From Plasmopara viticola (taxonomy: Eukaryota; Oomycota; Peronosporomycetes; Peronosporales; Peronosporaceae), in assembly GCA_001695595.3 (NCBI GenBank), contig MBPM02000072.1, forward strand, positions 62,001 to 126,000: a stretch of 64,000 bases of DNA, in the 5' to 3' direction. Shown here in pieces: positions 1 through 55,427 of this stretch; position 1 is the stretch's first letter, and each line of letters begins with the position of its first letter. The notes under the pieces were generated by a model. The model searched no databases, was not told the DNA's origin, and worked only from the letters and a program-made list of their open reading frames with translations. The position numbers were made by a program, and so were the translations under genes.

Positions 1-38
1 GATGTACTTAACACCAATGAGGTTTACTCATCTCTTCA

Positions 39-120
39 ATTAGTGTGCCCGAGTGGTCTAAGGAGGAAGACTCAAGTTCTACTGTGTTTGCACTCGTGGG
101 TTCAAATCCCACCGCTGACA
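39..120 (+). tRNA. tRNA-Leu(CAA)-like unit A1
   Basis: The acceptor is ATTAGTG against CGCTGAC, with one A-C mismatch and a T-G wobble. The anticodon loop CTCAAGT reads CAA and its stem GAAGA/TCTAC has one mismatch. The T stem GTGGG/CCCAC is perfect. A T5 run at 130-134 fits a Pol III terminator. It is a near-functional or recently dead copy. Confidence 0.6.
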
Positions 121-415
121 TGTCCACACTTTTTCAAACAAACTAATTTTGTCAGCGACGAAAGCCCGTGTCCCAATCATTTATTTCATTCTATGTGCAC
201 TCTATTGCCGCATCTTTGTAGAAGTGAATCTCTCCAAAGAACTCGCCATGGATCACACTCGCCAGTCTTCATAGTCAGCATCTATTCGCTAGCTGGACAG
301 CAGACCCAAATAAAATGAAGCAATGCAAATGTGAGTACAGCGATTCTCTTCTACTTAAAGTGTATGCTGCTCGTAGAATTGCATCTGAAACTGATGAGGA
401 TTACCCGTCCACATT

Positions 416-497
416 GTCAGTGTGCCCGAGTGGTCTAAGGGGGTAGACTCAAGTTCTACTGTGTTCGCACTCGTGAATTCAAATCCCACCGCTGACA
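416..497 (+). tRNA. tRNA-Leu(CAA)-like unit A2
   Basis: The acceptor GTCAGTG/CGCTGAC pairs 7 of 7 (one wobble). The D stem CCC/GGG and anticodon stem GTAGA/TCTAC are perfect and the anticodon is CAA. The T stem GTGAA/CCCAC has two mismatches. A T5 run lies at 507-511. This is among the best-preserved units. Confidence 0.65.
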
Positions 498-781
498 TGT
501 CAACACTTTTTGGAGAAGCGAATTTTGTCAGTGACGAAAGGCCGTGTTGCAAATCGTCGTCCTCACTCTTTAAGCACTCGATTGCCACTTCTTTGTGAAA
601 GTGAATCCTATCACACAAATTTGCCATCGTCTGTCTTCGTACACAGCATCTATTCATTAGCGGGACAGCAATACCAAGAAAAAAGGCAATGTGGTTGCTA
701 GTAAAGCAATGCCTGTCTGCTAAAAGTGTATGTTACTTGTAATGATGTACTTAACACCAATAAGGTTTACTCATATCTTCA

Positions 782-863
782 ATTAGTGTGCCCGAGTGGT
801 CTAAGGAGGAAGACTCAAGTTCTACTGTGTTTGCACTCGTGGGTTCAAATCCCACCGCTGACA
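782..863 (+). tRNA. tRNA-Leu(CAA)-like unit A3
   Basis: It repeats unit A1 almost base for base 743 bp further on: same ATTAGTG acceptor, CAA loop and perfect T stem. It is the first half of the second copy of the dimer. Confidence 0.6.
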
Positions 864-1158
864 TGTCCACACTTTTTCAAACAAACTGATTTTGTCAGCG
901 ACGAAAGCCCGTGTCCCAATCATTTATTTCATTCTATGTGCACTCTATTGCCGCATCTTTGTAGAAGTGAATCTCTCCAAAGAACTCGCCATGGATCACA
1001 CTCGCCAGTCTTCATAGTCAGCATCTATTCGCTAGCTGGACAGCAGACCCTGATAAAATGAAGCAATGCAAATGTGAGTACAGCGATTCTCTTCTACTTA
1101 AAGTGTATGCTGCTCGTAGAATTGCATCTGAAACTGATGAGGATTACCCGTCCACATT

Positions 1159-1240
1159 GTCAGTGTGCCCGAGTGGTCTAAGGGGGTAGACTCAAGTTCT
1201 ACTGTGTTCGCACTCGTGAATTCAAATCCCACCGCTGACA
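1159..1240 (+). tRNA. tRNA-Leu(CAA)-like unit A4
   Basis: It repeats unit A2 743 bp further on: full acceptor, CAA anticodon with a perfect stem, and the same two T-stem mismatches. The shared defects show duplication after the damage. Confidence 0.65.
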
Positions 1241-1523
1241 TGTCAACACTTTTTGGAGAAGCGAATTTCGTTAGTGAGGAAAGGCCGTGTTGCAAATCGT
1301 CGTCCTCACTCTTTAGCACTCGATTGCCACTTCTTTGTGAAAGTGAATCTTATCACACAAATTTGCCATCGTCTGTCTTCGTACACAGCGTCTATTCATT
1401 AGCGGGACAGCAATACTGAGAAAAAAGGCAATGTGGTTGCTAGTAAAGCAATGCTTGTCTGCTAAAAGTGTACGTTACTTTTAATGATCTACTTAACACC
1501 AATAAGGTTTATTCATCTCTTCA

Positions 1524-1605
1524 ATTAGTGTGCCCGAGTGGTCTAAGTCGGTAGACTCGAGTTCTATTGTGCTCGCACTCCTAAATTCAGATCCCTCTGC
1601 AGACA
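1524..1605 (+). pseudogene. tRNA-Leu-like unit A5, degenerate
   Basis: The anticodon loop has drifted to CTCGAGT (CGA). The 3' acceptor reads TGCAGAC and the T stem no longer pairs. The 5' half still follows the repeat consensus. Confidence 0.6.
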
Positions 1606-1896
1606 TGTCCACACTTTTTTAAGAAGCGAATTTCGTCAGTGACGAGAGGCCGTGTTGCAAATCGTTGTCTGCAGTCTTTGTGCACTCGATTGCTGCATTT
1701 TTGTAAAAGTAAATCTTTTCAAAAGCAATTGCCAGGGATCACAAACGCTAGTCTTCGTACACAGCATCGATTCATTAGCCGCACATTAAAACCGAGACGA
1801 AAGGCAATGTGGTTGCGAGAAAAGCAATGCTTGTCTGCTTGATGGTTATAACTTGCAATGATTAACTTAAAACTGCCTAAGTTTACTCATTCACTA

Positions 1897-1978
1897 ATTG
1901 GCGTGCCCGAGTGGCCTATGTGGGTAGACTTTAGTGCTCTTGTGCTCGCACTCGTGAGGACAAATCCCACCGCTGACA
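1897..1978 (+). pseudogene. tRNA-Leu-like unit A6, degenerate
   Basis: The acceptor is ATTGGCG against CGCTGAC. The loop is CTTTAGT, so the CAA anticodon is lost. The D arm reads GAGTGGCCTATG. Confidence 0.6.
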
Positions 1979-2273
1979 CGTTGACCCTTTTGATTAAACG
2001 AAATTTGTCAATGGCGAAAGCTCGTGATGCAAATCGTTGTCTTCATTCTTTTTGCACTCAATTGCCGCATCTTTGTAAGAGAGAATCTTTCCACAAAAAT
2101 TCGCCATGGATCACACTCGCCAGTCTTCGTACATAACATCTATCTATTAGCAGTGCAGCAGAATATATTAGAAAGAGGCAATGCAATTGCGAGAAATCGA
2201 TGCTTTTCTGCTTAAAGTGTATGTTACTTGAAAGGTTGTATCGAAAATTGCCTAGATTCAGTCATTATACACA

Positions 2274-2355
2274 GTCAGTGTGCCCGAGTGGTCTAAGTCG
2301 GTAGATTCAAATTCTTTTGTGCTCGCATTCGTGGATTTAAATCCCACCGCTGACA
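2274..2355 (+). tRNA. tRNA-Leu(CAA)-like unit A7
   Basis: The acceptor GTCAGTG/CGCTGAC pairs fully. The loop TTCAAAT reads CAA, with a weakened anticodon stem GTAGA/TCTTT. The T stem GTGGA/CCCAC has one mismatch. It opens the first copy of the trimer. Confidence 0.55.
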
Positions 2356-2648
2356 TGACGACACTATTTGAAAAAGCGAATTTCGTCAGTGACGAAAGGC
2401 CGTGTTGAAAATCGTTGTCTGCATTCTTTGTGCACTCGATTGCCGCACCTTTGTAATATTGAATCTTTCCACAAGATATTGCCATGGATCATAGTCACCA
2501 GTCTTCGTACACAGCATCTATTCCTTAGCGGGACAGCAAAACCGTGAAAAAGGCAATGAAATTGCGAGTAAATCAATGCATGTCTGCTTTAAATGAATGT
2601 TACTTGTAACGATCTACTTAGAACTGCTAAACTTTACGTTTCTCACTA

Positions 2649-2730
2649 ATAAGCGTGCTCGAGTAGCCTAAGTGGGTAGACTCAAGCTCTAGTGTGTCCG
2701 CACTCGTGAGGACAAAACCCACCACTGAGA
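2649..2730 (+). pseudogene. tRNA-Leu(CAA)-like unit A8, degenerate
   Basis: The acceptor is ATAAGCG against CACTGAG. The loop CTCAAGC keeps CAA and the A box is changed to GCTCGAGTAGCC. It is the middle unit of the trimer and shares these changes with A11. Confidence 0.6.
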
Positions 2731-3026
2731 AGTCGACCCTTTTGAAGAAACGAAATTTGCCAATGACGAAAGTTCGTGACGCAAATCGTTGTCTTCATTT
2801 GTTTTGCACTCGATTGATGCATCTTTGTTAGTTTGCGTCTTTCCACAAGAATTCGCCATGAATCACACTCGCCAGTCTTTGTATTCAGCATCTTTTTATT
2901 AGCAACACAGCAGAACCAATAAGAAATAGGCAATGCGTTTGCAAGAAAAGCGATGCTCTTCTGCGTAAATTGTATTTTGCTTGTAAAGTTATATCATAAT
3001 CTGCCTAGGTTCAGTCATCTTACACA

Positions 3027-3107
3027 GTCGGTGTGCCCGAGTGGTCTTCGTCGGTAGACTCACCTTTATTGTGCTCGTACTCAAGGATTTAAATCCCCCC
3101 GATGACA
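3027..3107 (+). pseudogene. tRNA-Leu-like unit A9, degenerate
   Basis: The acceptor is GTCGGTG against CGATGAC. The loop CTCACCT gives CAC in place of CAA, with one base lost. It is the third unit of the trimer and is closest to A12. Confidence 0.6.
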
Positions 3108-3404
3108 GGTCGACACTTTTTGAAGCAGCGAAAGTCGTCCTTAACGAAAGGCCGTGTCGCAAATCGTCGTCTTCATCATTTGTGCACTCGATTGCCGCAT
3201 TTTTGTTAGAGTGAATCTTTCCATAAGAATTCGCCATGGATCACACTCGCCAGTCTTCGTACACAACATCTACTCAATAGCAGGACAGCATAATCAAATA
3301 GAAACAGGCAATGCGGTTGCGAGAAAAGCGATGCTCTTCTGCTTAAAGTTTATGTTGCTTGAAATCTTGTATCGAATACTGCCTAGGTTCAGTCACCTTA
3401 CACA

Positions 3405-3486
3405 GTCGCTGTGCCCGAGTGGTCTAAGTCGGAAGACTCAAATTCTTTTGTGCTCGCACTTGTGGGGTCAAATCCCACCGCTGACA
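3405..3486 (+). tRNA. tRNA-Leu(CAA)-like unit A10
   Basis: The acceptor is GTCGCTG against CGCTGAC with one C-C mismatch. The loop CTCAAAT reads CAA and the T stem GTGGG/CCCAC is perfect. It opens the second trimer copy. Confidence 0.5.
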
Positions 3487-3774
3487 TTACGAAGCTATTT
3501 GAAGAATCGAATTTCGTCAGTGACGTAAGGCCGTGTTGCAAATCGTTGTCTGCATTCTTTGTGCACTCGATTGCCGCACCTTTGTAATATTGAATCTTTC
3601 CTATTGCCATGGATCATAGTCACCAGTCTTCGTACACAGCATCTATTCCTTAGCGGGACAGCAAAACCGTGAAAAAAGGCAATGAAATTGCGAGTAAATC
3701 AATGCTTGTCTGCTTAAAATGAATGTCACTTGTAATGATCTACTTAGAACTGCTAAACTTTACGTTTCTCACTA

Positions 3775-3856
3775 ATAAGCGTGCTCGAGTAGCCTAAGTG
3801 GGTAGACTCAAGCTCTAGTGTGTTCGCACTCGTGAGGACAAATCCCACCGCTGAGA
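3775..3856 (+). pseudogene. tRNA-Leu(CAA)-like unit A11, degenerate
   Basis: It shares the ATAAGCG acceptor, the GCTCGAGTAGCC A-box change and the CTCAAGC loop with A8, 1126 bp upstream. The acceptor end CGCTGAG does not pair with it. Confidence 0.6.
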
Positions 3857-4152
3857 AGTCGACCCGTTTGAAGAAACGAAATTTGTCAATGACGAAAGTC
3901 CGTGACGCAAATCGTTGTCTTCATTTGTTTTGCACTCGATTGATGCATCTTTGTTAGGGTGCGTCTTTCCACAAGAATTCGCCATGAATCACACTCGCCA
4001 GTCTTTGTACTCAACGTCTTTTTATTAGCAGGACAGCAGAACCAATAAGAAATAGGCAATGCGTTTGCGAGAAAAGCGATGCTCTTCTGCGTAAATTGTA
4101 TTTTGCTTGTAAAGTTATATCGAGATCTGCCTAGGTTCAGTCATCTTACACA

Positions 4153-4233
4153 GTCGGTGTGCCCGAGTGGTCTTAGTCGGTAGACTCAACTTTATTGTGC
4201 TCGTACTCAAGGATTCAAATCCCACCGATGACA
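4153..4233 (+). pseudogene. tRNA-Leu(CAA)-like unit A12, degenerate
   Basis: It shares the GTCGGTG/CGATGAC acceptor with A9, 1126 bp upstream, but keeps the CAA anticodon in CTCAACT. The T stem is weak. Confidence 0.6.
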
Positions 4234-4529
4234 GCTCGACACTTTTTCAAGCAGCGAATTTCGTCTGAAACGAAAGGCCGGTTCGCAAAATGTCGTCTTC
4301 ATTCTTTGTGCACTCGATTGCCGCATCTTTGTGAAAGTGAATCTTTCCACAAGAATTCGCCATGGACCACACTCGCCAGTCTTCGTACACAGCATCTACT
4401 CAATAGCAGGACAACAGAATGAAATAGAATGAGGCAATACGGTTGCGAGAAAGCGATGCTCTTCTGCTTAAAGTTTATGTTACTTGTAAAGTTATATCGA
4501 AAATTACCTTGGTTTAGTCAACTTACACA

Positions 4530-4611
4530 GTCAGGGTGCTCGGGTAGTCTAAGTCGATAGACTCAAGTTCTATTGTGCTCGCACTCGTGGATTACAGTAC
4601 CGCAGCTGACA
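4530..4611 (+). tRNA. tRNA-Leu(CAA)-like unit A13 with compensated anticodon stem
   Basis: The anticodon stem is ATAGA/TCTAT: both members of the outer pair changed (G-C to A-T), so pairing is kept. The anticodon is CAA. The acceptor is GTCAGGG against AGCTGAC and the T stem is broken, so function is doubtful. Confidence 0.5.
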
Positions 4612-4909
4612 TGTTCACACTTTTTGAAGAAGCGAATGTCGTCAATGACACAAGGCTGTGTCGCAAATTGTCATCTTCATTTTTTGTGCACTCGATTGCC
4701 GCATCTTTGTTTGAGTAAATCTTTCCACAAGAACTTGTCATGGATCACACTCGTCAGTCTTCGCACACAGAATCTATTCATTAGTGGGGCAGAAAAAGAA
4801 AGAAGAAAGAAGCAATGTGGCTGCTAGTAAAGCAATGTTCTTCAATTTAATGTGCATGTCGCTCAAAAAATTCTACTTTTAACTTGGTGAGGTTTAGTCA
4901 TCTCACGAA

Positions 4910-4991
4910 GTTAGTGTGCTCGAGTGGTCTTAGGGAAAAGACTTAAGTTCTACTGTGTTCGCACTCGTGGGTTCGAAATTCACCGCTGACA
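4910..4991 (+). pseudogene. tRNA-Leu-like unit A14 with TAA anticodon
   Basis: The acceptor GTTAGTG/CGCTGAC pairs with wobbles. The loop CTTAAGT gives TAA, still a leucine anticodon. The T stem GTGGG/TTCAC pairs only with G-T wobbles. The anticodon stem is broken. Confidence 0.55.
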
Positions 4992-5262
4992 TGTCGACTC
5001 TTTTCGAAGGAGTGAAGTTCGTCAATGACGAAAGTCCGTACTGCAAATCCATTCGATTGACATTTAATATGAAAATTGCCATCAGATTTTCCCATACATC
5101 ACACTCGTTAATCTTCGTACACAGTTTCTACTCTTTAGGGGGATAAAAAAATCAAGTAGAAAGAGGCAATGTGGTTGCGAGCAAAGCGATGCTCTTTTGT
5201 TCGAAGTGTATGCTTCTTGTAATGTTGTACTTGAAATTGCTAAGGTTTAGTCATCTCACAAA

Positions 5263-5344
5263 AGTAGCGTGCCCTATTGGTCAAATTAAGTAAACTCAAG
5301 TTCTCCTTTGTTCGCACACGTGGATTCAAATGACACCGCTGACA
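5263..5344 (+). pseudogene. tRNA-Leu(CAA)-like unit A15, degenerate
   Basis: The acceptor AGTAGCG does not match CGCTGAC well, and the A box is CCCTATTGGTC. CAA is kept in CTCAAGT. Confidence 0.55.
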
Positions 5345-5609
5345 TCTCGACTCATTTTAAAAATGAAAGCCCGTGTTGCAAATCGTTGTCTTTTTTCTTT
5401 AAGCTCTCGATTGCCACTTTTTAATGGAAATAAATCTTATCACAAGAATTATAAATGGACCATACTTTTAAATCTTCGTACACACATCTCTCCATTAACG
5501 AGACAGCAGAATCAAATAAGTAGTTGCGAGTAAAGCGATGCTTTTCTGCTTAAAGAGTTATTTCTTGTAGCCTTGTATTGAAAATGCTGGAGTTAGGTCA
5601 GTTTACATA

Positions 5610-5688
5610 GTCAGCGTGCACAAGTGATCTGAAGAGGTAGCCTTAAGTTCTTCTGTCGTACTCGTTTCTTTAAATTCCATCGCTGATA
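5610..5688 (+). pseudogene. tRNA-Leu-like unit A16, degenerate
   Basis: The acceptor GTCAGCG/CGCTGAT pairs 7 of 7 with a wobble. The loop CTTAAGT gives TAA. The D arm, variable arm and T stem are damaged and the unit is three bases short. Confidence 0.55.
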
Positions 5689-5984
5689 TGTCGACTCTTT
5701 TTAAAGGAGCGAATTTCATCAGAGACAAAAGCTTATGTTGCAAGTCGTTGTCTTCATTCTTGAAGCACTCCATTAACACTTTTTTGTGAAAGTGTACCTA
5801 CGACACAAATTTGCCATGGACCATACTCGTCAGTATTCGGACACAGCATCGATTCATTAGCGGGTCAGCAAAAAAAAATCGAAAGAGGCTATGAGGTTGC
5901 GAGCAAAGCGATGCTCTTTTGTTCAAAGTGTATGTTTATTGTAATGTTGTACTTGTAATTGCTAAGGTTTAGTCATCTCACAAA

Positions 5985-6061
5985 GTTGCCGTGCCCGATT
6001 AACTAAGTATACTCAAGCTCTCCTTTGTTCACGCTCATGGACTTAAATCCCACCGCTGACA
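5985..6061 (+). pseudogene. tRNA-Leu-like unit A17, D-arm deletion
   Basis: The unit is 77 nt long with several bases missing from the D arm after CCCGATT. CAA is kept in CTCAAGC. The acceptor is GTTGCCG against CGCTGAC. Confidence 0.55.
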
Positions 6062-6346
6062 TGTCGACTCTTTTCAAAGAAGCGAGTTTCGTCCGTGATG
6101 AAAGCCCATGTTGCAAACCGTTGTCTTCATTCCTCAAGCAATCAATTGTTTCTTTTTTGTGAACGTAGATCTTACCATAAGGATTTGCCATGGATCAAAC
6201 TCGCCAGTCTTCTCTTCATCAGCGAGAGAGTGGAACCAAATTGGAAAAGGCAAAGTGGTTTCGAATTAAGCGATGCTCTTCTGCTAAAGGTGTATGTGGC
6301 TTGTACAGTTGTACTGAAAACCGCTGAGATTTAGTCCTCTTACATA

Positions 6347-6428
6347 GTCAAAGTGCCCGGGTCGTCGAAGTAGAGAGATTTAACTTCTACTCTGTTCGCA
6401 CTGGTGGGTTCAAATTCCGCTGCTGACA
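6347..6428 (+). pseudogene. tRNA-Leu-like unit A18, degenerate
   Basis: The acceptor is GTCAAAG against TGCTGAC. The loop TTTAACT gives TAA. The T loop GTTCAAAT is kept but the 3' T strand is TCCGC. Confidence 0.55.
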
Positions 6429-6705
6429 TGTCGACTCTTTTAAACGAGCAAATATTATCAGGTACAAAAGCCCGATTTGGTTATCGTTATCTTCATTTTT
6501 TGAGCACTCCATTGCGACTTCTTTTTAATGTTACCACAAGTATTTGCCATGCATCACTCGTCAGTATTCGTTCACAGCCTTTATTCATTAGCGGGACAGC
6601 AGAAACAAATAGAAAGAGGCATTGCGATCTTAAGTTAAGCGATGCTCTTCTGCTAATAGTAAAAATTGCTTTTGGAACTGTTTTAAATATGAGTCGTCTC
6701 ACATA

Positions 6706-6787
6706 GTCAGTGTGCCCCAGTGGTATAAAGGGAAAGATTCGTATTCTTCTGTGTTCGCACTCGTGGGTTCAAATCCCACTGCTGACT
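6706..6787 (+). pseudogene. tRNA-Leu-like unit A19, anticodon changed to CGT
   Basis: The acceptor GTCAGTG/TGCTGAC pairs fully with wobbles and the T arm GTGGG/CCCAC is perfect. The loop TTCGTAT gives CGT, the A box reads CCCCAGTGG, and the discriminator base is T. Confidence 0.55.
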
Positions 6788-7055
6788 TGTCGGCTCTTTT
6801 TGAAGGAGCGATTTATCTCAGTGACAAAGGCCCATGTTTAACTTTATTCTCTTACTTCTTTAAGCACTCAATATCCACTTATTTGTGAAAGTGAATATCA
6901 CCAAAAGAATCCGCCATGGATCTATTCATTAGCGGGATAGAACAATCAAAATGAAAAGGCAATGTGGTTACGAACAAAGCGATGCTCTTTTACCTCAAGT
7001 GTACGTTGCTTGCAATTTTTTACCGAAAACCGCCGAAGTTCAGTCATCTCACATA

Positions 7056-7072
7056 GTCAGAGTGCCCGAGTT
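7056..7072 (+). pseudogene. Truncated tRNA-Leu moiety at the end of array A
   Basis: Only GTCAGAG plus TGCCCGAG survive before unrelated sequence begins. The array therefore ends inside a unit, marking a deletion or insertion breakpoint. Confidence 0.6.
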
Positions 7073-7139
7073 TAAGTAGTTTGTATTACTGAATACGACT
7101 TGAATCCTACGTCAAATAACAATATACTACATGGCTACA

Positions 7140-7930
7140 AACTTATTCGAGGAGGTCCTTTAATCGTTTGAGGTGAGGAACACTTTGATTGGCCGGATAA
7201 AAGAAACGAGTTGGAGCCATAAGCTTCCACCGTTATCAGTATTGCTGCTGTTTTTACAGATGACCACTTAACCGTGATTGTTGATCTGCATAGCAAAGTA
7301 GCGGCTTCATGTACAATCCAAGAAGGTTTGAAGCCTTGTCCGTAGTGACGGGAGGCGTAGTCGGTGTCGCATCTCCCGGTCTGATACAGAAGCACCGACT
7401 AGCGCTTCCTCCATATTCGAGTTCGGCTTCGAGCCCTGGCGACGACCCTCCAATAAAAAAACTGAAGCGGAGAATGAGCGGAGGCTCAGTCCTCAGATGC
7501 GCTGACTTTTGACGGTCCCTCGACCATAGGTTCTTCGACCGCAATGACTAAATCGAGAGTCGGACTCAGGAGGCCCGTCACCGTTTCGGGCCCTGGCGAT
7601 GACCGTCTAGTCTTCAACCTTATACCAGTCGTCTTGTGGGGGAGTCCATGGGAAGGCACTGGTCACTGGTTGGGACCATAGTGGCTGGCTTGGGCTTGGT
7701 CTCATTGACTTGCATACTTGTAGAAAAATTGGAAAATGAGGACACGAGGTCAGAGGCACAAAGTCGCGTGTCACATTTCTTTACCCTCCAAGATCGATCA
7801 TCCTGCAATTTATAATTTGACCTATCAGACTTTATTCCTGTCTGAGAAGACCATTCTGAAACTTGATATCTGTGAAAAAAAAATTCATTTCCATTATCAC
7901 AGGTAAACCGAGATTTTGGCACACCAGGGA
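7140..7930. other. Unrecognised GC-richer stretch before the LINE remnant
   Basis: Short open frames occur on both strands (for example a 67-codon plus frame at 7309-7512 and a 96-codon minus frame at 7254-7544). None shows a domain I recognise. Base composition resembles the LINE remnant that follows, so it may be its 5' part; that is a guess. Confidence 0.3.
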
Positions 7931-8026
7931 TAGGTTTGGAGCCGAGTCAGATGGCGGGAAATTGGCTGGAGTCGGAGTAAAGGCAGAACTAGGGACAGCT
8001 ACCGGAAGCGCACAACAAAATGCGAT

Positions 8027-9280
8027 TTGTTGTACTCACCGGTGGACGACTCTGAAATAACTTTGTTCTTTAAACATTTTCCAATGAATCGTTTTGAATA
8101 CATTGCGACGCACATAGTCCTTGGCGACTTAAACATAGTTCACGCAGACTCCGATTTCCAGTTTAATTTTCGCCGCCTGTGTTGCCAGCTCAACAATATA
8201 GCGGTGTAGTTTGTGCATGGCAGCAGAGCCCCACCGTAGCTACCGCCAGCACACCGCAACAACACTCAAGCTTCGGTGTCTCGCTGACTTTTTGGATGCT
8301 GAGGGTACATGGCCAGTTGCTGATTCGTTTGCGCGCGGCCCGCATCGACTACCGGCTCACGTCAGCACAAACATACCAGCAGCACCAGTGGCTCCGACAC
8401 CACGAAGCCACACAAGTCTTCGAGCGACTACTCGATATGTGCATCAATGTGCTGCTACCGCTTCCAGGCGTGGCCTAGTTGTGTTCCACTGCGCCATACG
8501 CTAGTGTGCTCGTGGATGCACGCGTATGTGTTGTGCCTTTGGTGCCACGATCCCAGTCGCTCCTGCTTGTGTGAAAGACTATAACGTTCACGAAGCCACA
8601 ATCAATTCAGCTGCACGATGGACATGCCACAACAACCGACATCAAGGGATTCGTGAACCAGTCGAAGAATCTACGCCATTTGTTGCTTCTGTAGACGAAA
8701 ACCTGCACTTCCGACGCGCCTTCCGTCTGCTGCCAATGCGTTCACGATTCTCGATCCTACGCGAGGCGCATCCCGATATCAACTACTGCGTGCGCACAAG
8801 TGCAACGCAGCGGATATAGAGGGGCATCTGTTTTTCAATTGTGTCTACCAGCCGAGCATTGGCTAGTCCTAATTTAAGACTGGTCACCTTTCTTCGTCAC
8901 CAGCTCGACATCGCCCTTGGTCGCACACCAGCCTTACATATACCTGGCACGACCATGCCGCCATAGGTCGTGACATGTGGCAGATCACACCTTGCATCAC
9001 ACTCCACTTGCTATGGACAGTACGCAATGACGGTTTGTTCCGCCAGCGTGAGCCTTTGCCTCTGGTGTCTGCGCTCCGGGTCGCATACATTTCGTTAAGC
9101 GCGCATGTGCGTGCGTGCAATTGTAGGGTGTTCGATTAAGAGCAGAAAGGCTCGCTCCAGTCTGTGCTGACCTCGCTTCGATGCTCTCGCTGGATGGGTG
9201 ACTTATGCACACCAACAAATCTCATTGTGGATGTACACAGGAGCACTGACGACCATCAATCGATTGACGGGGCTAATAAA
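8027..9280 (+). mobile_element. Decayed LINE (non-LTR) retrotransposon remnant
   Basis: At 8027-8160 the plus frame carries YSPVDDSE followed by ATHIVLGDLNI, which resembles the conserved GDxN segment of LINE apurinic endonucleases. At 8780-8870, across a frameshift, a cysteine/histidine cluster (C-x4-C-x6-H-x4-C) lies before frames ending in WTVRNDGLFRQ and AYISLSAHV at about 9010-9110. That matches the zinc-knuckle C-terminus typical of LINE ORF2 proteins. The reverse transcriptase core is missing and stops and frameshifts are frequent, so the copy is dead. Plus-strand sequence at about 9228-9265 resembles 16477-16505. Confidence 0.55.
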
Positions 9281-10930: not shown

Positions 10931-12823
10931 TCACTTGCGCGTGAGCAAACGAGCTGCAACGAAAGATGCCGACGCCATCAGGGTGGCAAATGCCAGAAGG
11001 GTTACCTTGTCTGCATTCAATCCGCTTAACCTTGCTGCCAGATCAACCCTCAACAACAACCCGTCCTCCTCCTTGTTTCGCAGAACTTCCTTGGCCTTGT
11101 CTTCCAAAGTTGTACCACACGTTTCGTTGTGACGTTTCCCAACATTACCACACGAGCACTTTAATTCGCTACCACCACAGCTTTCTTCATCTCCATAGTA
11201 GTCTACGTGGTCATGAGCGCGACGATTGCCGTTGGTAGGACTAATCGCCGCCTTTGCCTTGAATATTAGCCTGGATCGTTTTGCAGCTGACGAATCTACT
11301 CTATTACAAATCTGTTCGCGAACAGCAGCAGCTGCTTCAGTAGCGGGTTGAGACCGTGAGTAAACTTTGCCTACGACGTGAAAACGCGCAGCAGTGAGGA
11401 CGCAGACCTCCGCTGTGCACCCGATAAGAGAGTCGTCACGGGCGAGAAGTACTTTAGTATAATTCTTAGTGTGTGCAACTGTGTACTTTTTGTCGTCTGA
11501 GACCTCCGTGTTGACCCAAACTTTATGCATCGTGCCCACTAGATGTGTGTACGGCTCGAACGTCTCAAACAACTTCGTAAGCTTTCGACTGCGAGTCTTG
11601 ACTACTTGCGTAGGGACTCGTTTCATCTTTGCTGCCGATGTACCTGGGCGGGGATAAAACTGAGAAATGTTCATTATATGAAAACGGTACTTCTCAACAA
11701 GCTTCATCGTCATGTCAAAATGGTTCTCCATTTCTGTTGGAAAGCCACAGATAATATCGGTAGCAAGCGTAAGATCTGGCACTTTGGCGAGTAACTCATC
11801 AGCCACACGACAAAAATCGGCCGTGGTATACTCCCGATTCATCGCCAACAACACATCATCACTGCCAGACTGGACAGGCACATGAAGAAAGGAATAGACT
11901 CGGTCGTGGTTGAGCACTTCAGCAATCGCATCTAAATGATTCAAAATGTACGGAGGATTTGTCATGCCCACACGGAGCATGACGCCATCTGGCACAACTT
12001 GCAGCAATTTACACAAAAGCGTCGGCAGATCGGTGCCAATATCAATGCCATAAGCTCCCGTATCCTCACTGGACAACCAGATCTCGGTCACGCCTTCACT
12101 TATTACCGCTTGCGCTCTTGAAACGATCGTTTCAGGCGTATAACTTCCCAATTTACCGCGCGCATGACGCGTCTTGCAGTACGTACAAGCTCCTAGACAG
12201 CCTGTGCTGAGTGGGATAATCTCCACCATAGGATTCTTGCGAATTTTTGGTAAATCCAACTCTGGGAGGCGATTTTTTGACAAAAGACGAACAGTGTGGC
12301 CTTTTAACGTCTCCTCTACGACTTCAACGACTCGATCTACCTGCTGAATGCCTACGATACTAACCTCCTCAAGGCCTTTAAGGTGGCGGTCAGCTTGCGG
12401 CACACAGCCAGCCACGACCACAAATTTGTTTTGCTTGCGGCCCTTAGCAGCCAAGTGCATGAATGCAGCCTGAGATGGGTCCTTGACTGTGCAGCTGTTG
12501 AGCAGCCAAAGCTGTGCTGTGTCTGGATCCTGCGTAAAGCGGTAGCCATAACTGGCCAGTACGCCCTGCATATATTCAGAATCGCTCACGTTGTGCGAGC
12601 AGCCGTACGTCTTAATCCAAATAAGCTGCGTACCGGGCACATCGATCTTCATGTTTTCCAAGTCGGAGCCACTCGAGTCGCTGCTACTTGTGCTGCTACT
12701 GAACGTTGACGACTTGACAGGTTCTTGAAAGCATGGCTTAGGTGCCACCATTGGTGTGCGCACAGAGCTCAAACTCGCACGATCTAACTCCTCCTCACCG
12801 AACATGTCCTCAATGTCGTCCAT
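10931..12823 (-). CDS. CDKAL1: CDKAL1-type threonylcarbamoyladenosine tRNA methylthiotransferase
   Basis: Single-exon protein of 630 residues. The family converts t6A37 to ms2t6A37 in tRNAs reading ANN codons, using radical SAM chemistry and two 4Fe-4S clusters. The N-terminal MTTase domain starts near residue 66 with IKTYGCSHNVSDSEYM, and its cluster cysteines are C75, C111 and C140. The radical SAM motif is C209-x3-C213-x2-C216 within STGCLGACTYCKTRHARG. GFPTEMENHF and the NISQFYPRPGT segment follow. A TRAM-like region covers roughly 425-485. A low-complexity, Cys-containing linker follows, and a hydrophobic segment at about 607-627 would anchor the protein, as in animal CDKAL1. The N-terminal 55 residues are acidic and serine-rich. 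The ATG at 12821-12823 is the first in frame. Family assignment is firm; location at the ER is inferred from the tail. Confidence 0.95.
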   Translation of the reverse strand: MDDIEDMFGEEELDRASLSSVRTPMVAPKPCFQEPVKSSTFSSSTSSSDSSGSDLENMKIDVPGTQLIWIKTYGCSHNVSDSEYMQGVLASYGYRFTQDPDTAQLWLLNSCTVKDPSQAAFMHLAAKGRKQNKFVVVAGCVPQADRHLKGLEEVSIVGIQQVDRVVEVVEETLKGHTVRLLSKNRLPELDLPKIRKNPMVEIIPLSTGCLGACTYCKTRHARGKLGSYTPETIVSRAQAVISEGVTEIWLSSEDTGAYGIDIGTDLPTLLCKLLQVVPDGVMLRVGMTNPPYILNHLDAIAEVLNHDRVYSFLHVPVQSGSDDVLLAMNREYTTADFCRVADELLAKVPDLTLATDIICGFPTEMENHFDMTMKLVEKYRFHIMNISQFYPRPGTSAAKMKRVPTQVVKTRSRKLTKLFETFEPYTHLVGTMHKVWVNTEVSDDKKYTVAHTKNYTKVLLARDDSLIGCTAEVCVLTAARFHVVGKVYSRSQPATEAAAAVREQICNRVDSSAAKRSRLIFKAKAAISPTNGNRRAHDHVDYYGDEESCGGSELKCSCGNVGKRHNETCGTTLEDKAKEVLRNKEEDGLLLRVDLAARLSGLNADKVTLLAFATLMASASFVAARLLTRK

Positions 12824-13790
12824 ATTTATGTTGTATTAAGTGGTTGTGATGCGCCCAGCTGTGAAACATTATAGAAAATTAATGCCACCTGCCAAATTTA
12901 AAAAAGCAGCATTTTGGGTTCGCGCGTCGCCCGCTTGACTTTTCCTTCATTAAAGTTGCTACGTTTTCAAGGGCATGACCCCGTCGTTCCGATTTAACAG
13001 TCCCAAACTGGCCATGAAATAGAGAGTCGGTCCAGTATTTGGATAGTGATGCGAACAGTGCAACATTCTGGTCTTCGAATACAATATGTTCTTGTTAATC
13101 CCTATGTGATTGACGCGTTGTTGTATGAAAATGTGGCAAAAATTCTCTCGGCTTTTTTTCAATATTACCTCAAGGTAAATGCGCAACTTGCTGCAATTGT
13201 TAAACGCTCGTGTCACAGAGACGGAGTGGTGTTTGAGAATTTTGAAGTGAGCTGAATGCTTTATAATGTGTTGATACACTAACGTGGATCTATTGACCTA
13301 AGTTGTCTAGATTAACAGCTTTACTGATAGCTAAATCAATTAATCAGGTCGGCTTCGTATGCGAGAAATTTAGTTGAGTAGCTCGTAAGTTGCGTATTTC
13401 TAAGACACCATTGGAGGTTGTCCTCAGCATTCCTTATATAATTCTAGCGCCATATATAGTGCATCAGCTAGCGCCTAAGGCAGAAGCGATACTGTAGCTT
13501 AAAAAACGACGAGTATTCGATGATTGATTCTCAAAATGATTCAATATAGGCTTAAGATGCTGGGCACTATCGAACAAAATACGATTCAAAGTTAATAGTT
13601 GTTGTCGACCTCTAGACCAGCTCTGATGGGGTGCGTGCCACCCTTGTTGGTCATTCGTCCTGTTCGGAATAGCATCAGAAGCGTTCAGTCTCGCAATTTA
13701 TTACATAAGATACAAGCTGATGTTAGCATTAAAAGCTATCTTAGATAGCAAGAAACACTGTTGTGCTACCTTTGTAATACTTGCTAATAT
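12824..13790. other. Upstream region of the CDKAL1-type gene; no gene seen
   Basis: The sequence is AT-rich with only short open frames. It must include the promoter of the minus-strand gene ending at 12823, but I see no site I can name. Confidence 0.4.
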
Positions 13791-14570: not shown

Positions 14571-14641
14571 CCTAAACATCAGCACCCTTTAATAGCAATT
14601 TAAAAGCAGCACGCACTCAACTTTATCAAAAACAGTTGACA

Positions 14642-14719
14642 TGTCTGCGGCTTTGAGCCCACGAGCACAAACAGAGATGAACTACAGTCTACTCACTTAC
14701 ACTACTCGGGCACGCTATT
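14642..14719 (-). pseudogene. tRNA-Leu-like unit B1
   Basis: It keeps GTGCCCGAGTAG and a 3' end CGCAGAC. The anticodon stem and T stem are disrupted. A T5 run follows the 3' end on the minus strand. Confidence 0.5.
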
Positions 14720-15000
14720 ATGTGAGATAACTAAACCTCAGTATCAATCTGAACAAAATTACAAGCACCATACACTTTAAGCAGAAAAGCATCGCTTTAC
14801 TCGCAACCTCAATGCCTCTTTCTGTTAAGGTCTGCTGTTCTGCTAATTGCACGAAAACTGACGAGTGTGATCCTAGGCAAATTTCGAGATAATATACACT
14901 CTCATAAGAAGTGGCAATTGAGTGCTTGAATAATGAAGACAAACATTTGCAACACGGGCTTTTGTCACTGACGAAACTCGCTCCTTTAAAAGGGTTGACA

Positions 15001-15080
15001 TGTCAGCGGTGGGATTTCAACCCACGAGTGCGAATAATAAGACTTGAGTCTACCCCCTTGGATCACTCGGGCACTCTGAC
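15001..15080 (-). pseudogene. tRNA-Leu(CAA)-like unit B2
   Basis: It reads GTCAGAG at the 5' end and CGCTGAC at the 3' end, with loop CTCAAGT (CAA) and a perfect T stem GTGGG/CCCAC. The T loop is TTGAAAT and the 3' anticodon strand is damaged. Confidence 0.55.
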
Positions 15081-15389
15081 TATGTAAATTGACTAACCCT
15101 CAGCAGTTCTGAGTTCAATTTAACGAGCAATATCCACTTTGAGCAGAAGAGCGTCGCTTTACTTGCAACTACATTGCCTCTTTCGATTTGGTTTTGCTGC
15201 CACAATAATGGATAGATACTGTGTAGTAAGACTGACGAGTGTTATCCATGGCAGCTTCTCGTGATAAGATTCACTTTCACAAAAAAGGGCAACCGAGTGC
15301 TCATAGAATGAAGACAACACAAGATTTTGTCGCTGTTTGCAACACAAGATTTTGTCGCTGTTTGAATCTGCTCTTCAATAGAGTCCACA

Positions 15390-15471
15390 TGTCAGCGGTG
15401 GGATTGAACCCACGAGTGCGCAGACAGTAAAACATGAGTAATCCCTCTTTAGACTATATGGGCACACTGAC
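15390..15471 (-). pseudogene. tRNA-Leu-like unit B3
   Basis: The acceptor GTCAGTG/CGCTGAC is intact. The anticodon region reads TACTCATGTTT, so CAA is lost. The T loop has lost a base. Between B2 and B3 a 25-bp segment is tandemly doubled (15316-15364). Confidence 0.5.
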
Positions 15472-15756
15472 TATTTGAAATGACTAAACCTCAGAAGTTT
15501 TTACAAGCGACATACACTTCTAAGCATAAGAGCATCGCTTTAATTGCAGCCGCATTGCTTCTTTCTATTTAGGTCTGCTGTCCTGCTGATGCATAGATGT
15601 TGTGTACGAAGACTGACCGATGTGATCCATAGTGAAATACTTTGAAAATATTAAGTTCGTCGGCGATTGGCAGAGGAGGGTTTAGGGGTTGGGGACAGAG
15701 ATTTGACACACGGGTATTCGTGGTGACTAAATTCGCTATTTTAAATAGCGTTGACA

Positions 15757-15825
15757 TGTCAGCGGTGGTTTCTGAACCCACGAGTGCAAACTCAGTAGAA
15801 CTTGGCTCTACCCCTTTAGACCACC
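15757..15825 (-). pseudogene. tRNA-Leu-like unit B4, 5' truncated
   Basis: The 3' acceptor CGCTGAC and a readable anticodon arm GTAGAGCCAAGTTCTAC remain. The 5' end is replaced by unrelated sequence at about 15826. Confidence 0.5.
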
Positions 15826-15829
15826 GTTA

Positions 15830-18800
15830 CCGTGTTGTTGCTTGGTCTAGCATTATTTATGCGGCTGTGATGGCTTCGTCGTTTTGGTCGCGTAGCTTAC
15901 GTTTCAGGGCCTGTAGCTGGCACTGCATTAATCATTTCAATTCCTTCCAGACCGTTCCTGTGCTCGACGCAGCCTGAATTATTACAAGTACCTGCTGGGC
16001 TTTTCCGCGGATGGCATACAACGTCGAAGTACCCGAAAAGATATTTTGAGAAGCACCAGCATCCGTATCCGTGGAGCTGATACCCCGAGTACAAGGCCAT
16101 TATGTGCGCCAGGTCGTCACCAGCACCCTTGGGCTCAAAGTACTCGAAGAAATCGCGCAATGCGTTGTAGAAGGCTTTCGGCGACAAAGCATAGTGAAGT
16201 CGGTTCTGCCACGGCTGAGATCGGTGTACACGTGCCCGTCTCGGGGGTGGATTCGCCAGGTACTGACGACACCAAACTGGCTGAGCTAACTCATTCAGAC
16301 ACTATGGCCCAGGTGAACAAGCAAGCGTGGCTGCGACTAATCGATGCTGGGGTTGAGCGGCGTGTTCAAGATACCGAGGACTATGTGCGTCGCATTGTCC
16401 TCAAAGCGGTTCACCGGAAGATGATTGAAGAACACAGCTTTTTCATGGCCGTCTACCGGCGAGTTCACATTGTGGTGTACACGGGAGCACTGCCGACTAC
16501 CAATCGTATGACCAATCAGCGGGCCGGGACAGTCAGTCCGCGAAGCTCCTCGGCCGTATCGAGACCTGAAAATTCGGATCGGAGCACAGTGAGCACCCTC
16601 TGATTGGCATGTCGTCTGTGCGGCACTGATTGCACCAGGATCACCGATAAGTGCCTGAAACAGGCTTGAAAATTAAACTTAAAGATGTCAAGATGGTGGC
16701 AATCACGGAGTCTCGTCTCCTAGATGCAAGAGAGACTGTCCTTCTCGAGCAAGCACTCGATGAGAAATTGTCCGTTTTTTCTGTTCCCGTTGGTATTGAT
16801 GGTCAGCAAATTGACTTCTTGCCACAAGACCTCGAGCACGTCCACGCGCGGGACCACCTTAGCACCTTAGTTCGAGCATTTCGGTCACAAGCATAGGCTG
16901 AGTGTTAACTTGGTGCAGCTTGAGCACATCTGCGTTCTCTGGAAAGTAATGGCCGCAGTCACGAAGGTACTTAAGGTCTTCGAGTATATCTCTTTCCCAC
17001 TGGACTTATTCTCAGATCGTGAAGCAGTGTGTTTCGATCTTGGAGTGAAGCAGGACCAACATCGTAAGGGGTGAAGTAGACGTCGATTGTGCACTGAAGA
17101 CCAGGACACCGACCACCCGGTCAGACGCTGGAGCCAGTAGTCCTTTTCAAAGATCTGGGGCGCTGTGTACATCAACATCAACTCAAATAGGAACAGCACC
17201 CTGGTCCCACGCACGATGCTTGGTGTGTCCGAATTATTCCACCACTGGGCAACCCATCGAAATCCAACCATCTAGCGTCTTGGGTACCTTGGTGCCGTTA
17301 AAATTGGCCCGTTTGCGAGCAAACATGTTGGTGTCGGTGCGGTTGGTCACGCTCAAGATGCATTTTATTATGTGAAGCTAGCCCGGCTCGGTGACGCTGG
17401 GCCGGCTCGGTGACGCTGGGGCCCGACTCACGAATTTACGTAAGACCGCAACGTTAAACGCACTGAGAGCCTTGACGAACCCCATGTACGTCAGCGTGTC
17501 GGGGTTGTTCGTCGTACAGAGCGACTTGCGGAGGCCACCAACCATGGCGTCGTCAGCGGCTAAGCAATCTAAAGGCAGCTGGACATCAGCCATCTTTTCA
17601 GCAGCCTCAATCTCGCTGAAGATCTCTTGGATCGGAGTCGGCTCTCTACTTTTGACCACGTGACTGGCTTCCTTGCCGGCAGTCATTTTACGCGGCGCCT
17701 GCAACTTGCGTGGCACAATTAGGAAGCGCGATATCTTGACGTCAGCAAGCGTCGTTGGACAGCAGTCGAACTCGACCTCGACAATGCTGAACACGTCAAA
17801 GTAGTTGCTCGTCATGACGCCGACGAGAGATTAAGGACGAAGTCTGATTAGCGGTATTGTGTGCGACCAGCTCGTATTTGCGTGACGCATCTTCCAAGAA
17901 CATGCGAACAATGCTTCATTTCTAATACAACGTATGTCGTTTAATCAACGTTCGATCTATGCACTCGACCTCGCTTGAGATACTGTTCCATCCTTTGCTA
18001 CCAGCCAAAGCATAAAAGATATGTACGCGCCGCAGCCATTGTATGCTGCCGTGGTACGCCGTAGAAAACGTCGCTTGAACGATCAATTCATGTCCCTCCT
18101 GCATCTCTAATTGGTGATCCAGCGCTTAGCAAAACTTCCCCCTGAAATGCAGGCTCCCAAGTCGTGTCGTAAACAAGCAGCCCGAGATCGTCTCGGTCGC
18201 TCCTTCGCCCACCCGCTGTCGACACTCGACACATCAATGAAGAGGCGGTCGGCATGTATGTTGAACCTGTCAAATCGGTATCTGCCCCCGTAGATCTTTA
18301 CTCTTTGACCAGCGAGGCGCTGACAGGTTTTCTTCGCCTTCACCTTGACGTGGATGTTGCCATAGGGAGCTTTAACCAGCTAATCTAGTCGCTGCGGGTC
18401 AAAATGCTGTTGACGGCAAGGTCGATAATGTCCTTGAGCAGGAAAAGCAAGAATGGCTTGGTATTTAAGCGCTGGAAGGTGATCTCAGTCATGATGACCA
18501 TCGCATAGCGTGCACGAGGAAGGGCGTATGGACAAGCTCGGTCAATCAAGATCGCAAGTTGGCTCCAGTGTTTTCGTCTTCATACAAAGCAAAAAAATCT
18601 CAGTGTTCATCGTAAGTCTAGTCATCCCGACACGCGGCGGGAAGGGTGCCAAAACGTTGTCATCGCGGACATTCGTGAAACGTTGTAGCAGGGCACGAAG
18701 CGTCGGCGTGCGTGTGGATGTGTTGGTAGTCGGACGCGTGCGGACTGCCGCGGATGGCTGGGGAGTATGTTGGCGCGTGTCGTTATCGGTCTGCACATCT

Positions 18801-19185
18801 TCCACAGAATCTTGCGTGGCAGGTTGCTGGTGCGTAGATGTGTAACGCAGCTGCGTGACCATGCCATCACTTGATAATTGCAAGTCTTGCACCGCGGACC
18901 CAAAATTATCGTCCTAGTCCGTGCATGGAAGCTTGGATAAAAACCATTGTTGGTTACGGAGCCAGCCAAACCGTCGCTTGGTAGTGCTGTGAGACCTTCC
19001 ATAGGCGATGGATCGGCGGAACATGTTCAGGGGGATGGTCGTGAAGTCACCTCACATAACAAGCAATCAACTTGCGTGGTCACTGCTCGCTACGGCAACC
19101 ATGGAGGGAGAGGCTTGCGTGGGTGCTTGAGTGCTTTGGTCCTTCGAAATTTGACTTGGTCAAGCTGATCGACGGGACAAATCAA
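15830..19185. other. Unidentified stretch with broken coding frames, mostly minus
   Basis: Protein-like frames are spread over both strands without a complete gene. On the minus strand: 96 codons at 15897-16187, 145 codons at 17378-17815 (containing IEVEFD-like and PTPIQEIFSEIEAAEK text), and overlapping frames at 17922-18343 and 18542-19002. On the plus strand: 185 codons at 16046-16603, whose end resembles a piece of the LINE remnant near 9.25 kb, and 81 codons at 16651-16896. Frame changes and stops separate minus-strand pieces that read on from one another, which suggests a decayed multi-kilobase gene or element. I do not recognise it. A 19-bp tandem doubling lies at about 17383-17420. 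Confidence 0.4.
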
Positions 19186-19190
19186 GAAGT

Positions 19191-19271
19191 GTCATTGTGC
19201 TCGAGTGGTCTAAGGGGATGGACTCAAACTCTACTTCATTGCACTTGTGTATACAAATCCCACAGCTGACA
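19191..19271 (+). pseudogene. tRNA-Leu(CAA)-like unit C1
   Basis: It reads GTCATTG at the 5' end and AGCTGAC at the 3' end, with loop CTCAAAC (CAA). The variable and T arms are damaged. Confidence 0.5.
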
Positions 19272-19406
19272 TGTTGACTCCTTTTCAAATAGCAGATTCT
19301 GCCTTTGGCAATTTCGCAACAATCGAGTTCATAAATAATGAGAACCAAGATTTGCTACAAAGGATTTCGTCACTGACTTAATGTACTCCTTCAAATAGCG
19401 TTGACA

Positions 19407-19477
19407 TGTCAGTAGTGAAATTTGATCCACGAGAGCTAACACAGTAGAACTTTTTTAAGACCACTCGGCACACTGAC
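19407..19477 (-). pseudogene. tRNA-Leu-like unit C2, deleted
   Basis: The unit is 71 nt long. The 5' end GTCAGTG and GAGTGGTCT are kept, but part of the anticodon arm is gone and the T stem is broken. Confidence 0.5.
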
Positions 19478-19594
19478 TGTGTTAGATGCTTGAACTTCGG
19501 CACCGTTAAATGTAACTTTACAAGCAACATACACTCTAAGCAGAAGAGCAACGCTCTACTCGCAATTTATTGCCTCTATCTGTTTGAGCCTACG

Positions 19595-19674
19595 TGTCAG
19601 TAGTATGATATCACCCAATCGTGGAATATAGTAAAACTTGATTCATCCTCCTTACACCACTCAGGCTTACTGAC
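19595..19674 (-). pseudogene. tRNA-Leu-like unit C3
   Basis: It is heavily diverged, recognisable from GAGTGGTGTAAGGAGG and a loop containing TCAAGT on the minus strand. Confidence 0.45.
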
Positions 19675-19956
19675 CGCTGAGATTATTAAACCTCGGCACT
19701 TCAAATGATAGATAACGAAAAGCACAAACTTTTGACAAAAAAGAGCAACGTTAATCGCAACCCCATTGGACCCTCTCTTCGAGATTGCTGTCTCGCTAAT
19801 GGATGGCTGCAGCGTACGGAGACTTACTAATGTGAACCATCGCAAATTTATATGGTGAGGTTTACCTTTACAAAGAAGCGGCAATCGAATGAGGACAAAT
19901 ACCATTACACCGGCTTTCGTCACTAACAAAGTTTGCTATTACAAAAGGAGTCGACA

Positions 19957-20038
19957 TTTCAGCAGTGGGATTTGAACCCACGAGTGCGAACACAGTATAT
20001 CTTGTGTCTACCCATTTAGACCACTCGAGCACACTGAC
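19957..20038 (-). pseudogene. tRNA-Leu(CAA)-like unit C4
   Basis: It is the best-kept unit of array C: 5' GTCAGTG, CTCGAGTGGTCTAA, loop CACAAGA (CAA in position) and a perfect T arm GTGGG/CCCAC. The 3' acceptor TGCTGAA fails at its end. Confidence 0.55.
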
Positions 20039-20313
20039 AATGTTATATGCTTGAATCTTAGCATCTGTTAGCTTAAATTTTCAAAAACAGCATACACTTT
20101 AATAAGCAAAGATATCGCTTGACTTGCAACACATTTCCTCTCCTTTTGTGAATCTGCTGTCTGAGTAATGTACAGATGCTGGGTACATTAACGGACAAGT
20201 ACGGTCCATGGAACCAACGGAGTAAGATATATCTTCTCAGTGGGGTGACAATCGAGTGCTAAGAGAATGAGGACATACATTCGCACTTTTCGCTTATAAA
20301 AATGGAGTCGACA

Positions 20314-20395
20314 CGTCGGCAGTGGGGTCTAAATTCATGGAGGTGAGCACAATAGAGCTCAAAGTTACCCACTTAGTCCACTAAAGTACGTTGAC
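20314..20395 (-). pseudogene. tRNA-Leu-like unit C5
   Basis: It is strongly diverged. The ends read GTCAACG and TGCCGAC, and the A box and T arm are barely recognisable. The retroelement-free flank after it leads into the sideroflexin relic. Confidence 0.45.
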
Positions 20396-54335: not shown

Positions 54336-54360
54336 TCCCTATAAGACGAGGGAGTCGACA

Positions 54361-54442
54361 TATCAGCGGTGGGATTTGAATTCACGAGTGCGAATACAGT
54401 AAAACTTGTGAATAATTTCGTAGGCCACTCGAGCACACAGAC
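54361..54442 (-). pseudogene. tRNA-Leu-like unit D1
   Basis: The 5' end GTCTGTG pairs poorly with CGCTGAT. The T loop TTCAAAT is kept, but one T-stem pair is lost and CAA is lost from the anticodon loop. Confidence 0.5.
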
Positions 54443-54707
54443 CATGTAAGAAACCTAAACCTCAGCACCTTAGATACAACTTTGCAAGCATCATGCAAAT
54501 TTTAATGTAAAGCATATCGGTTTTTGCAATCACATTTCCTTTTTTTATTTGGGTCTGCTGTCCCGCTAATGAAAGGATACTGTGTACTACCGAGTGTGAC
54601 TTATATTAGTTTATTGGTGACAGTCGATTATAAAGAGAGTAGAAACGAAAATCTGTACGCGGGCTTTCGTCACTGACAAAATATCGCTACTTCAAATACA
54701 ATCGACA

Positions 54708-54788
54708 TTTGAGCCGTAAGATTTGAACTCACGAGTGCAAAAATAGAAGATCTTGAATCTACCCTTTCGAGCAATCGAGCACACTGGA
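54708..54788 (-). pseudogene. tRNA-Leu(CAA)-like unit D2
   Basis: The loop TTCAAGA reads CAA in position. The acceptor and T stems are damaged. Confidence 0.5.
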
Positions 54789-55093
54789 TATGTAAGATGA
54801 CTAAACTTCAGCACCTAAAATTCAACTTTACCAAGAACATACGATTTAAGCAGAAGAGCATCGCTTTACTCGTAAACCGCGTTGTCTCTCTTTTTATGAA
54901 ACTGCTGTCCTGCCAAAACGACAATGCGTGCGAAGACTGACAAGTTTGATCCATGGCAAAATATTGTGGTAACATTCACATCTGCAAAGCTATCGCAATC
55001 GAGTGCGTAGACAATGAAGGCAGAGTTTGGATACACGGGCTACTGTCTGTGTCTTTATTTGCTATTAGTTTGCTTTTACACATAGAGACGACA

Positions 55094-55175
55094 TGTAAGT
55101 GGTGGGATTTGAACCCACGAGTGTGAACACAATAGAAATTGAATCTACCCTCTTAGACAACACGGGTACACTGAC
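55094..55175 (-). pseudogene. tRNA-Leu(CAA)-like unit D3
   Basis: It is the best-kept unit here: 5' GTCAGTG, CAA in loop TTCAATT, and a perfect T arm GTGGG/CCCAC. The 3' acceptor is CACTTAC and the A box GTACCCGTGTTG is mutated. Confidence 0.55.
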
Positions 55176-55427
55176 TATTGAGGTGAACAAACCTCAGTAG
55201 TTTTTCAGTACAACTTTGCAAACAACATACACTTAAAGAGAAATCGCTTCACTCGTACTTACATTGCCTATTTTTACATCACTCTGTTGCCTCACTAGCG
55301 AATAGGCAGTGTATGCAAAGACCGACGAGTCTGATCCATGGCAAATTATTGTGGTAACATTTACTGCTAAATTTTGATACACGGGCTTTGTCCGTGACTA
55401 ACGTTGCTCCTTCAAATAAAGTCGACA

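Follow-up and report, generated by a model that had tools for sequence, protein, structure and literature searches.

The decaying edge of a tRNA-Leu(CAA) array in Plasmopara viticola, very probably ended by a retrotransposon of a lineage that inserts in box A of tRNA genes

The window analyzed here is a stretch of 64,000 nucleotides from the oomycete Plasmopara viticola (contig MBPM02000072.1 of assembly GCA_001695595.3, hereafter C72; the window is C72:62001-126000, and positions without a contig name are counted within it). It opens with a tandem array of ~370-bp units at positions 1-7072, for which Tandem Repeats Finder (TRF) reports a period of 378 with 73% matches over positions 20-5049. 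The array core consists of alternating tRNA-Leu(CAA) units of two types, A (363 nt) and B (377 nt), 740 bp per pair. At position 7072 the array breaks off inside a tRNA, and the sequence adjoining it there also opens an insertion in the core, at C72:17825, at the same place in the tRNA. We consider it very likely that the window starts with the decaying right edge of a long tRNA-Leu(CAA) array, which was ended at 7072 by a box-A-targeting non-long-terminal-repeat (non-LTR) retrotransposon of a tRNA-gene-specific lineage. The features on which this reading rests are the following.

1-1523 (+): last two A/B pairs of the homogeneous core, with tRNA at 39-120, 416-497, 782-863, and 1159-1240
1524-7056 (+): decayed edge of 15 units, in which tRNA part and spacer are equally diverged
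7057-7072 (+): tRNA stub, which reads as nucleotides 1-16; left side of the retrotransposon target site
7073-9263 (-): decayed, rearranged, and truncated non-LTR retrotransposon copy (3' part), whose 3' end abuts the stub
15828-19189 (-): second decayed retrotransposon copy (5' part), which ends exactly at a tRNA start
19190-19272 (+): tRNA-Leu-derived sequence adjoining the 5' end of the retrotransposon, on the right of its target site

The first-pass annotation of this DNA had described twenty units of about 370 bp at positions 1-7072. The period holds, and the count becomes 19 tRNA-derived units plus a stub of ~16 nt; the array itself runs on upstream to the contig end, spanning 69 kb on C72 up to position 7072, including one insertion of ~7.8 kb. 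The very start of the contig (C72:3-234) is B-unit spacer at 100%. Across C72:1-62000, ARAGORN, which we used for all tRNA gene calls, returned 147 calls for 148 units, all of them tRNA-Leu(CAA). The locus thus holds many near-identical head-to-tail copies of one tRNA gene, as the annotation had proposed.

We searched 92,937,831 bp in 358 contigs for further copies. A DNA similarity search with a window unit failed to recover the intact core, probably because the search skips frequent words, and genome-wide counts of both types were therefore taken from exact-pattern searches. Exact A-type tRNAs occur 97 times, 25 on C25, 53 on C72, and 19 on C349, which is the complete list; exact B-type tRNAs occur 111 times (100 of the 111 were listed). 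C25 ends inside the array and C72 starts inside it, both in the same orientation, and on C349 the array extends from near the first base to ~13.7 kb. The three pieces are possibly a single large array broken up by the assembly. Such contig ends inside the array would also suit a mis-assembly, or a collapse of a few copies. We regard an artefact of this kind as very improbable: the edge units carry many private differences, the contig runs on into a host gene, and the published assembly was built from PacBio reads at ~185x (PMC6660063; this and the other papers cited by PMC number are cited for the sections consulted).

In the core, the tRNA sequence is set apart from the DNA around it. Between units A and B, 79 of 84 tRNA positions are identical, against 184 of 279 in the spacer (Fisher p=5e-8); a second alignment gave 95.1% and 70.1%. 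The closer agreement of the tRNA parts indicates conservation of the tRNA alongside drift of the spacer. All 23 stem pairs are present in 57 of the 148 core units, 22 in 12, 21 in 71, and fewer in 8, so that the core can form cloverleaves, whereas none of the 19 window units keeps all 23 pairs. The B-type state, mismatches at pairs 1:81 and 10:26 of the 82-nt gene, is common to 68 of the 71 units with 21 pairs. Candidate Pol III (RNA polymerase III) signals, recognized by sequence only, are nearly invariant in the 148 units: box A is identical in 144, box B in 145, and a T5 run in 143. In A-type core units, departures from the consensus amount to 1.7% in the spacer versus 0.6% in the tRNA. At least five units of the A-spacer class open with a B-type tRNA stretch (three are B-type throughout, two mixed), which is what unequal exchange would give. 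As a separate observation on the core units of C72 and C25, the exact B type, with its two stem mismatches, outnumbers the exact A type genome-wide (111 vs 97).

The window units behave differently. The four units at 1-1523 are 95-99% identical to the core consensus of their type, and each already has two to three broken stem pairs. In the 15 edge units that follow (105 pairs), pairwise identity is 72.7% for the tRNA and 72.5% for the spacer (difference 0.002, 95% confidence interval (CI) -0.049 to 0.048), and 17.0 stem pairs are observed where 16.9 are expected under random mutation. Compared with core unit A, the edge is 82.0% identical in the tRNA and 73.6% in the spacer (CI of the difference 0.034 to 0.131), the pattern that a slowly evolving core tRNA and a freely evolving edge would give. 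A three-unit duplication lies within the edge (2274/2649/3027 versus 3405/3775/4153, with identities of 95, 96, and 89%). In Rfam, the window units gave weak tRNA matches, and the microRNA-like, transfer-messenger RNA, and plastid matches fell below the cut-off. The CAA triplet stands at positions 34-36 in 12 of the 19 units, in line with the loop reported earlier for most of them; all 19 also have the reported T-run, at least three T within 30 nt, a run so short that it is common by chance. Unit by unit, the tRNA-Leu identity proposed for the window survives in part: ARAGORN calls tRNA-Leu(CAA) in 4 of the 19. The last unit (6706-6787), an edge copy derived from tRNA-Leu and carrying T as its discriminator base, is tRNA-Thr (CGT) by ARAGORN and has the top Rfam score of the array units (36.4 bits).

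These comparisons also bear on whether the array could be satellite DNA proper, its tRNA likeness incidental and its 370-bp unit maintained to serve a centromere, boundary, or subtelomere. The first-pass annotation had named such roles among its possibilities and had described a spacer nearly as conserved as the tRNA. That equality is real in the decayed edge, where it follows from the tRNA copies showing no sign of selection, and it does not extend to the core. Head-to-tail repetition at ~370 bp would suit a satellite, and such DNA exists in oomycetes (PMC7290008). A satellite would not be expected to conserve its tRNA part between unit types so far beyond its spacer, nor to keep all stem pairs in more than a third of its core units; exact A-type tRNAs are moreover restricted to three contigs, and no telomere repeat was found in the examined parts of C72, C25, C92, and C112. 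We therefore consider a satellite role very improbable, and for the core the A/B comparison rejects it, as constraint is not equal throughout the array. The repeat is an array of tRNA genes whose edge is dead, and no constrained satellite.

The insertion in the core, which we term E1 (C72:17825-25640, 7816 bp), lies antisense to the tRNA and has no terminal repeats. Its second open reading frame (ORF2) is an open 1382-aa frame with endonuclease and reverse transcriptase domains, identified in Pfam as Exo_endo_phos (6.9e-6; PF03372, apurinic-type) and RVT_1 (4.8e-33); the ORF1 region is split across two frames. The nearest solved relatives include human LINE-1 ORF2p (3.8e-46). E1 is thus a non-LTR retrotransposon (long interspersed nuclear element, LINE) of the apurinic-endonuclease (APE) type, and we keep its label at the level of the L1 group, not splitting it into L1 versus Tx1. 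Both copies in the window descend from such elements: the main pieces of the copy at 7073-9263 are 67-81% identical to E1, and pieces of the copy at 15828-19189 are 79%, 71%, and 70% identical. The stub at 7057-7072 may include one or two letters of element sequence at its end. ARAGORN calls no tRNA at 19190-19272.

The insertion site was examined genome-wide with a 3'-end pattern that lies wholly inside the element and contains no target bases. It has 18 matches, and in all 18 the bases directly before the element are the opening 14-16 nt of tRNA sequence of Leu or Ser type, which places the 3' junction at nucleotides 14-16, within box A; a few of the stubs have one changed base (e.g., C211:62023, C299, and position 7072). 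Four extra copies, found with a pattern requiring target bases, show the same junction and were left out of the specificity count. A 5'-end pattern likewise has 18 matches, 17 of which are followed by a complete tRNA gene as called by ARAGORN: Leu TAG (6), Leu CAG (3), Leu CAA (1), Ser AGA (3), Ser GCT (2), and Ser CGA (2). Two decayed copies outside this set (at 19190 and on C25) have the junction next to a tRNA that ARAGORN did not accept. The target-site duplication measures 14-16 nt from about tRNA nucleotide 1, and it is this duplication that rebuilds a complete gene beyond the element.

Relatives of E1 occupy the same place in other tRNA genes. The ORF2 C-terminus has 129 matching places in the genome, at identities from 100% down to 39%. 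All six relatives taken from contigs with known tRNA arrays end at the E1-family place (five in tRNA-Lys, one in tRNA-Met; one stub has a changed base). A second set of eight came from other contigs and was chosen without viewing flanks (one of these contigs, C37, had a tRNA match ~180 kb away). Seven of the eight share this end point; the genes they occupy are Ala (AGC), Thr (AGT twice, TGT once), Arg (ACG), Lys, and one uncalled by ARAGORN. One Thr and one Lys relative were seen as a stub only and were assigned from their identity with tRNA starts observed in other places. The Met-family relative has the same 5' letters as E1 and adjoins a rebuilt tRNA-Met. Taken together, the site is occupied at 18/18 3' ends, 17/18 5' ends, and in 13/14 relatives, and the place is fixed within two bases. 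A small hairpin is possible at four 3' ends from three families (no control was included), and a role for it would be a guess. As proteins without flanks, ORF2 relatives were found in Globisporangium, Plasmopara, Peronospora, Lagenidium, and Aphanomyces.

A retrotransposon without any tRNA targeting could also have been carried along as a passenger while tRNA arrays amplified, as the near-identical array flanks of several copies (C203, C211, and C288) might suggest. Such carriage would hardly produce the same junction in six Leu/Ser tRNA species and, among the relatives, in Lys, Met, Ala, Thr, and Arg genes that all differ in their flanks, nor duplicated letters that match the local tRNA; we hold this explanation, too, to be very unlikely.

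Several observations nevertheless weigh against a decaying array edge ended by a box-A-targeting element, or limit how precisely it can be stated. The step from core to edge at ~1500 is abrupt, with no smooth gradient. B-type units, about half of the array, are very uniform despite their two stem mismatches, and their departures from the consensus are nearly equal in spacer (0.31%) and tRNA (0.25%), which gives little indication of present-day selection on the B tRNA. Among the junctions, the 5' end at C90:221950-221974 (+) has no tRNA gene beyond it (1/18), the C37 relative has no junction in the 581 bp examined (1/8), and a rebuilt gene was seen in the relatives at one of three places tried, the other two being without a 5' junction. 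Several insertions share flanks, such as the near-identical ones on C203, C211, and C288, and may trace back to a single event that was multiplied along with the array. Finally, the exact base is unfixed: four stubs (Ala, Arg, and two of Ser-CGA) disagree in their final one or two letters with the complete gene found at the site or close to it, which narrows the cut to nucleotides 14-16. Cleavage directly after the conserved A14 fits every junction, and all element 3' ends would then begin GTT in the tRNA sense; as nearby genes need not equal the original target, we offer this as a suggestion.

Target-primed reverse transcription, the route stated, for example, for TRE5-A (PMC5911963), fits the junctions, which suggest how it may operate here. 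The element endonuclease would make its nick in box A of the Pol III promoter, at nucleotides 14-16 of the tRNA-sense strand, and the freed 3' end would prime reverse transcription, which would explain why the element is antisense to the tRNA. A cut of the other strand upstream, at about nucleotide 1, would leave the 14-16-nt duplication. As this supplies the opening 14-16 nucleotides again, an intact gene, internal promoter included, stands on the far side of the element. For the array, judging from the repeats themselves, unequal exchange most likely keeps the core uniform, and the core tRNA parts are probably under selection; edge units would escape both and decay.

Arrays of this kind are familiar from oomycetes, whose genomes hold up to thousands of tRNA genes in arrays for reasons that are unclear (PMC9584435). 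The arrays of Phytophthora infestans and other oomycetes are likewise long and head-to-tail, with many families on one chromosome, and variants in single-unit arrays are often grouped near one edge, as here (PMC9584435). The present case differs in its Leu(CAA) A/B pair, its species, its quantified dead edge, and the retrotransposons at edge and core; section 9 of PMC9584435 makes no mention of retrotransposon junctions. The array itself is ordinary for an oomycete, and the retrotransposon lineage is the noteworthy part.

Elements aimed at tRNA genes are known from several groups. NeSL-related non-LTR elements are tRNA-gene-specific, as E1 is (NeSL-1_TV in Pro, LIN15_SM in Arg, and LIN25_SM in Glu genes; PMC4640811); the NeSL clade has a restriction-like endonuclease, whereas the E1 lineage has the apurinic type (PF03372) and uses box A in several isotypes. 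Dewa of zebrafish and the element Dada-tL also target tRNA-Leu repeats, and in Perkinsus some of the sites hit by Dada elements belong to box A; Dewa, however, is reported in the tRNA-Leu spacer, and Dada-tL, found inside tRNA-Leu, belongs to the Dada DDE DNA transposons, which make 6-7 bp duplications (PMC3706591). Dictyostelium TRE5 and TRE3 are L1-type and aimed at tRNA genes as well, but insert 40-54 bp upstream or 40-150 bp downstream, with no fixed place inside the gene (PMC5911963; see also PMC5006619 for the literature on Dewa, Dada-tL, and TRE elements). Utopia, like E1, is a site-specific non-LTR element kept in a multicopy oomycete small-RNA gene, but it targets U2 small nuclear RNA, has a restriction-like endonuclease, and leaves disrupted U2 genes without their 5' 38 bp (PMC4640811). 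We found no APE-type LINE fixed inside box A across many isotypes described in the open-licence literature, a search that did not cover most subscription journals or Repbase.

The window contains further tRNA-Leu-derived sequence, inverted relative to the array.

14627-15824 (-): inverted decayed tRNA-Leu units
19320-20382 (-): inverted decayed tRNA-Leu units
54354-55867 (-): five tRNA-Leu units, inverted and decayed, at a further distance of 34 kb

In the inverted decayed unit at 15824, the tRNA match starts near nucleotide 15 and faces E1 position ~4097 of the old copy (15828), possibly an inversion broken near the target site. On C25, decayed inverted units (C25:829176-846092, -) stand head-to-head with the intact array (C25:846379-866454, +; L024, L025, L042, L043), and this decayed part holds a further retrotransposon copy at ~836.58-843.5 kb. 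On C349, a 44% relative of the retrotransposon (C349:15187-16059, -) lies near that small contig's tRNA-Leu(CAA) units, and on C27 (L084 1665-1738), a tRNA-Met-derived array copy has the anticodon CAA and is called tRNA-Leu by ARAGORN. The host gene next to the array, 3.9 kb away, is a 634-aa open frame (10934-12835, -) with UPF0004 and radical SAM domains in Pfam. The frame, which we take to be CDKAL1/MiaB-like, is probably a gene for a tRNA-modifying enzyme.

Beyond this locus, we tentatively propose that an oomycete LINE lineage lands in box A itself in most tRNA isotypes, and that a stagger matched to the distance from nick to first base rebuilds each gene it enters. Gene sparing, combined with exchange within arrays, could make tRNA arrays a long-term habitat for such elements and may help explain array size. 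If true, the R1/R2 elements of ribosomal DNA would have a counterpart in tRNA genes, a box-A lineage that restores the genes into which it inserts. Such a lineage would provide a testable link between array size, homogenization, and parasitic elements, and the lineage may supply natural endonucleases specific for the tRNA box A.

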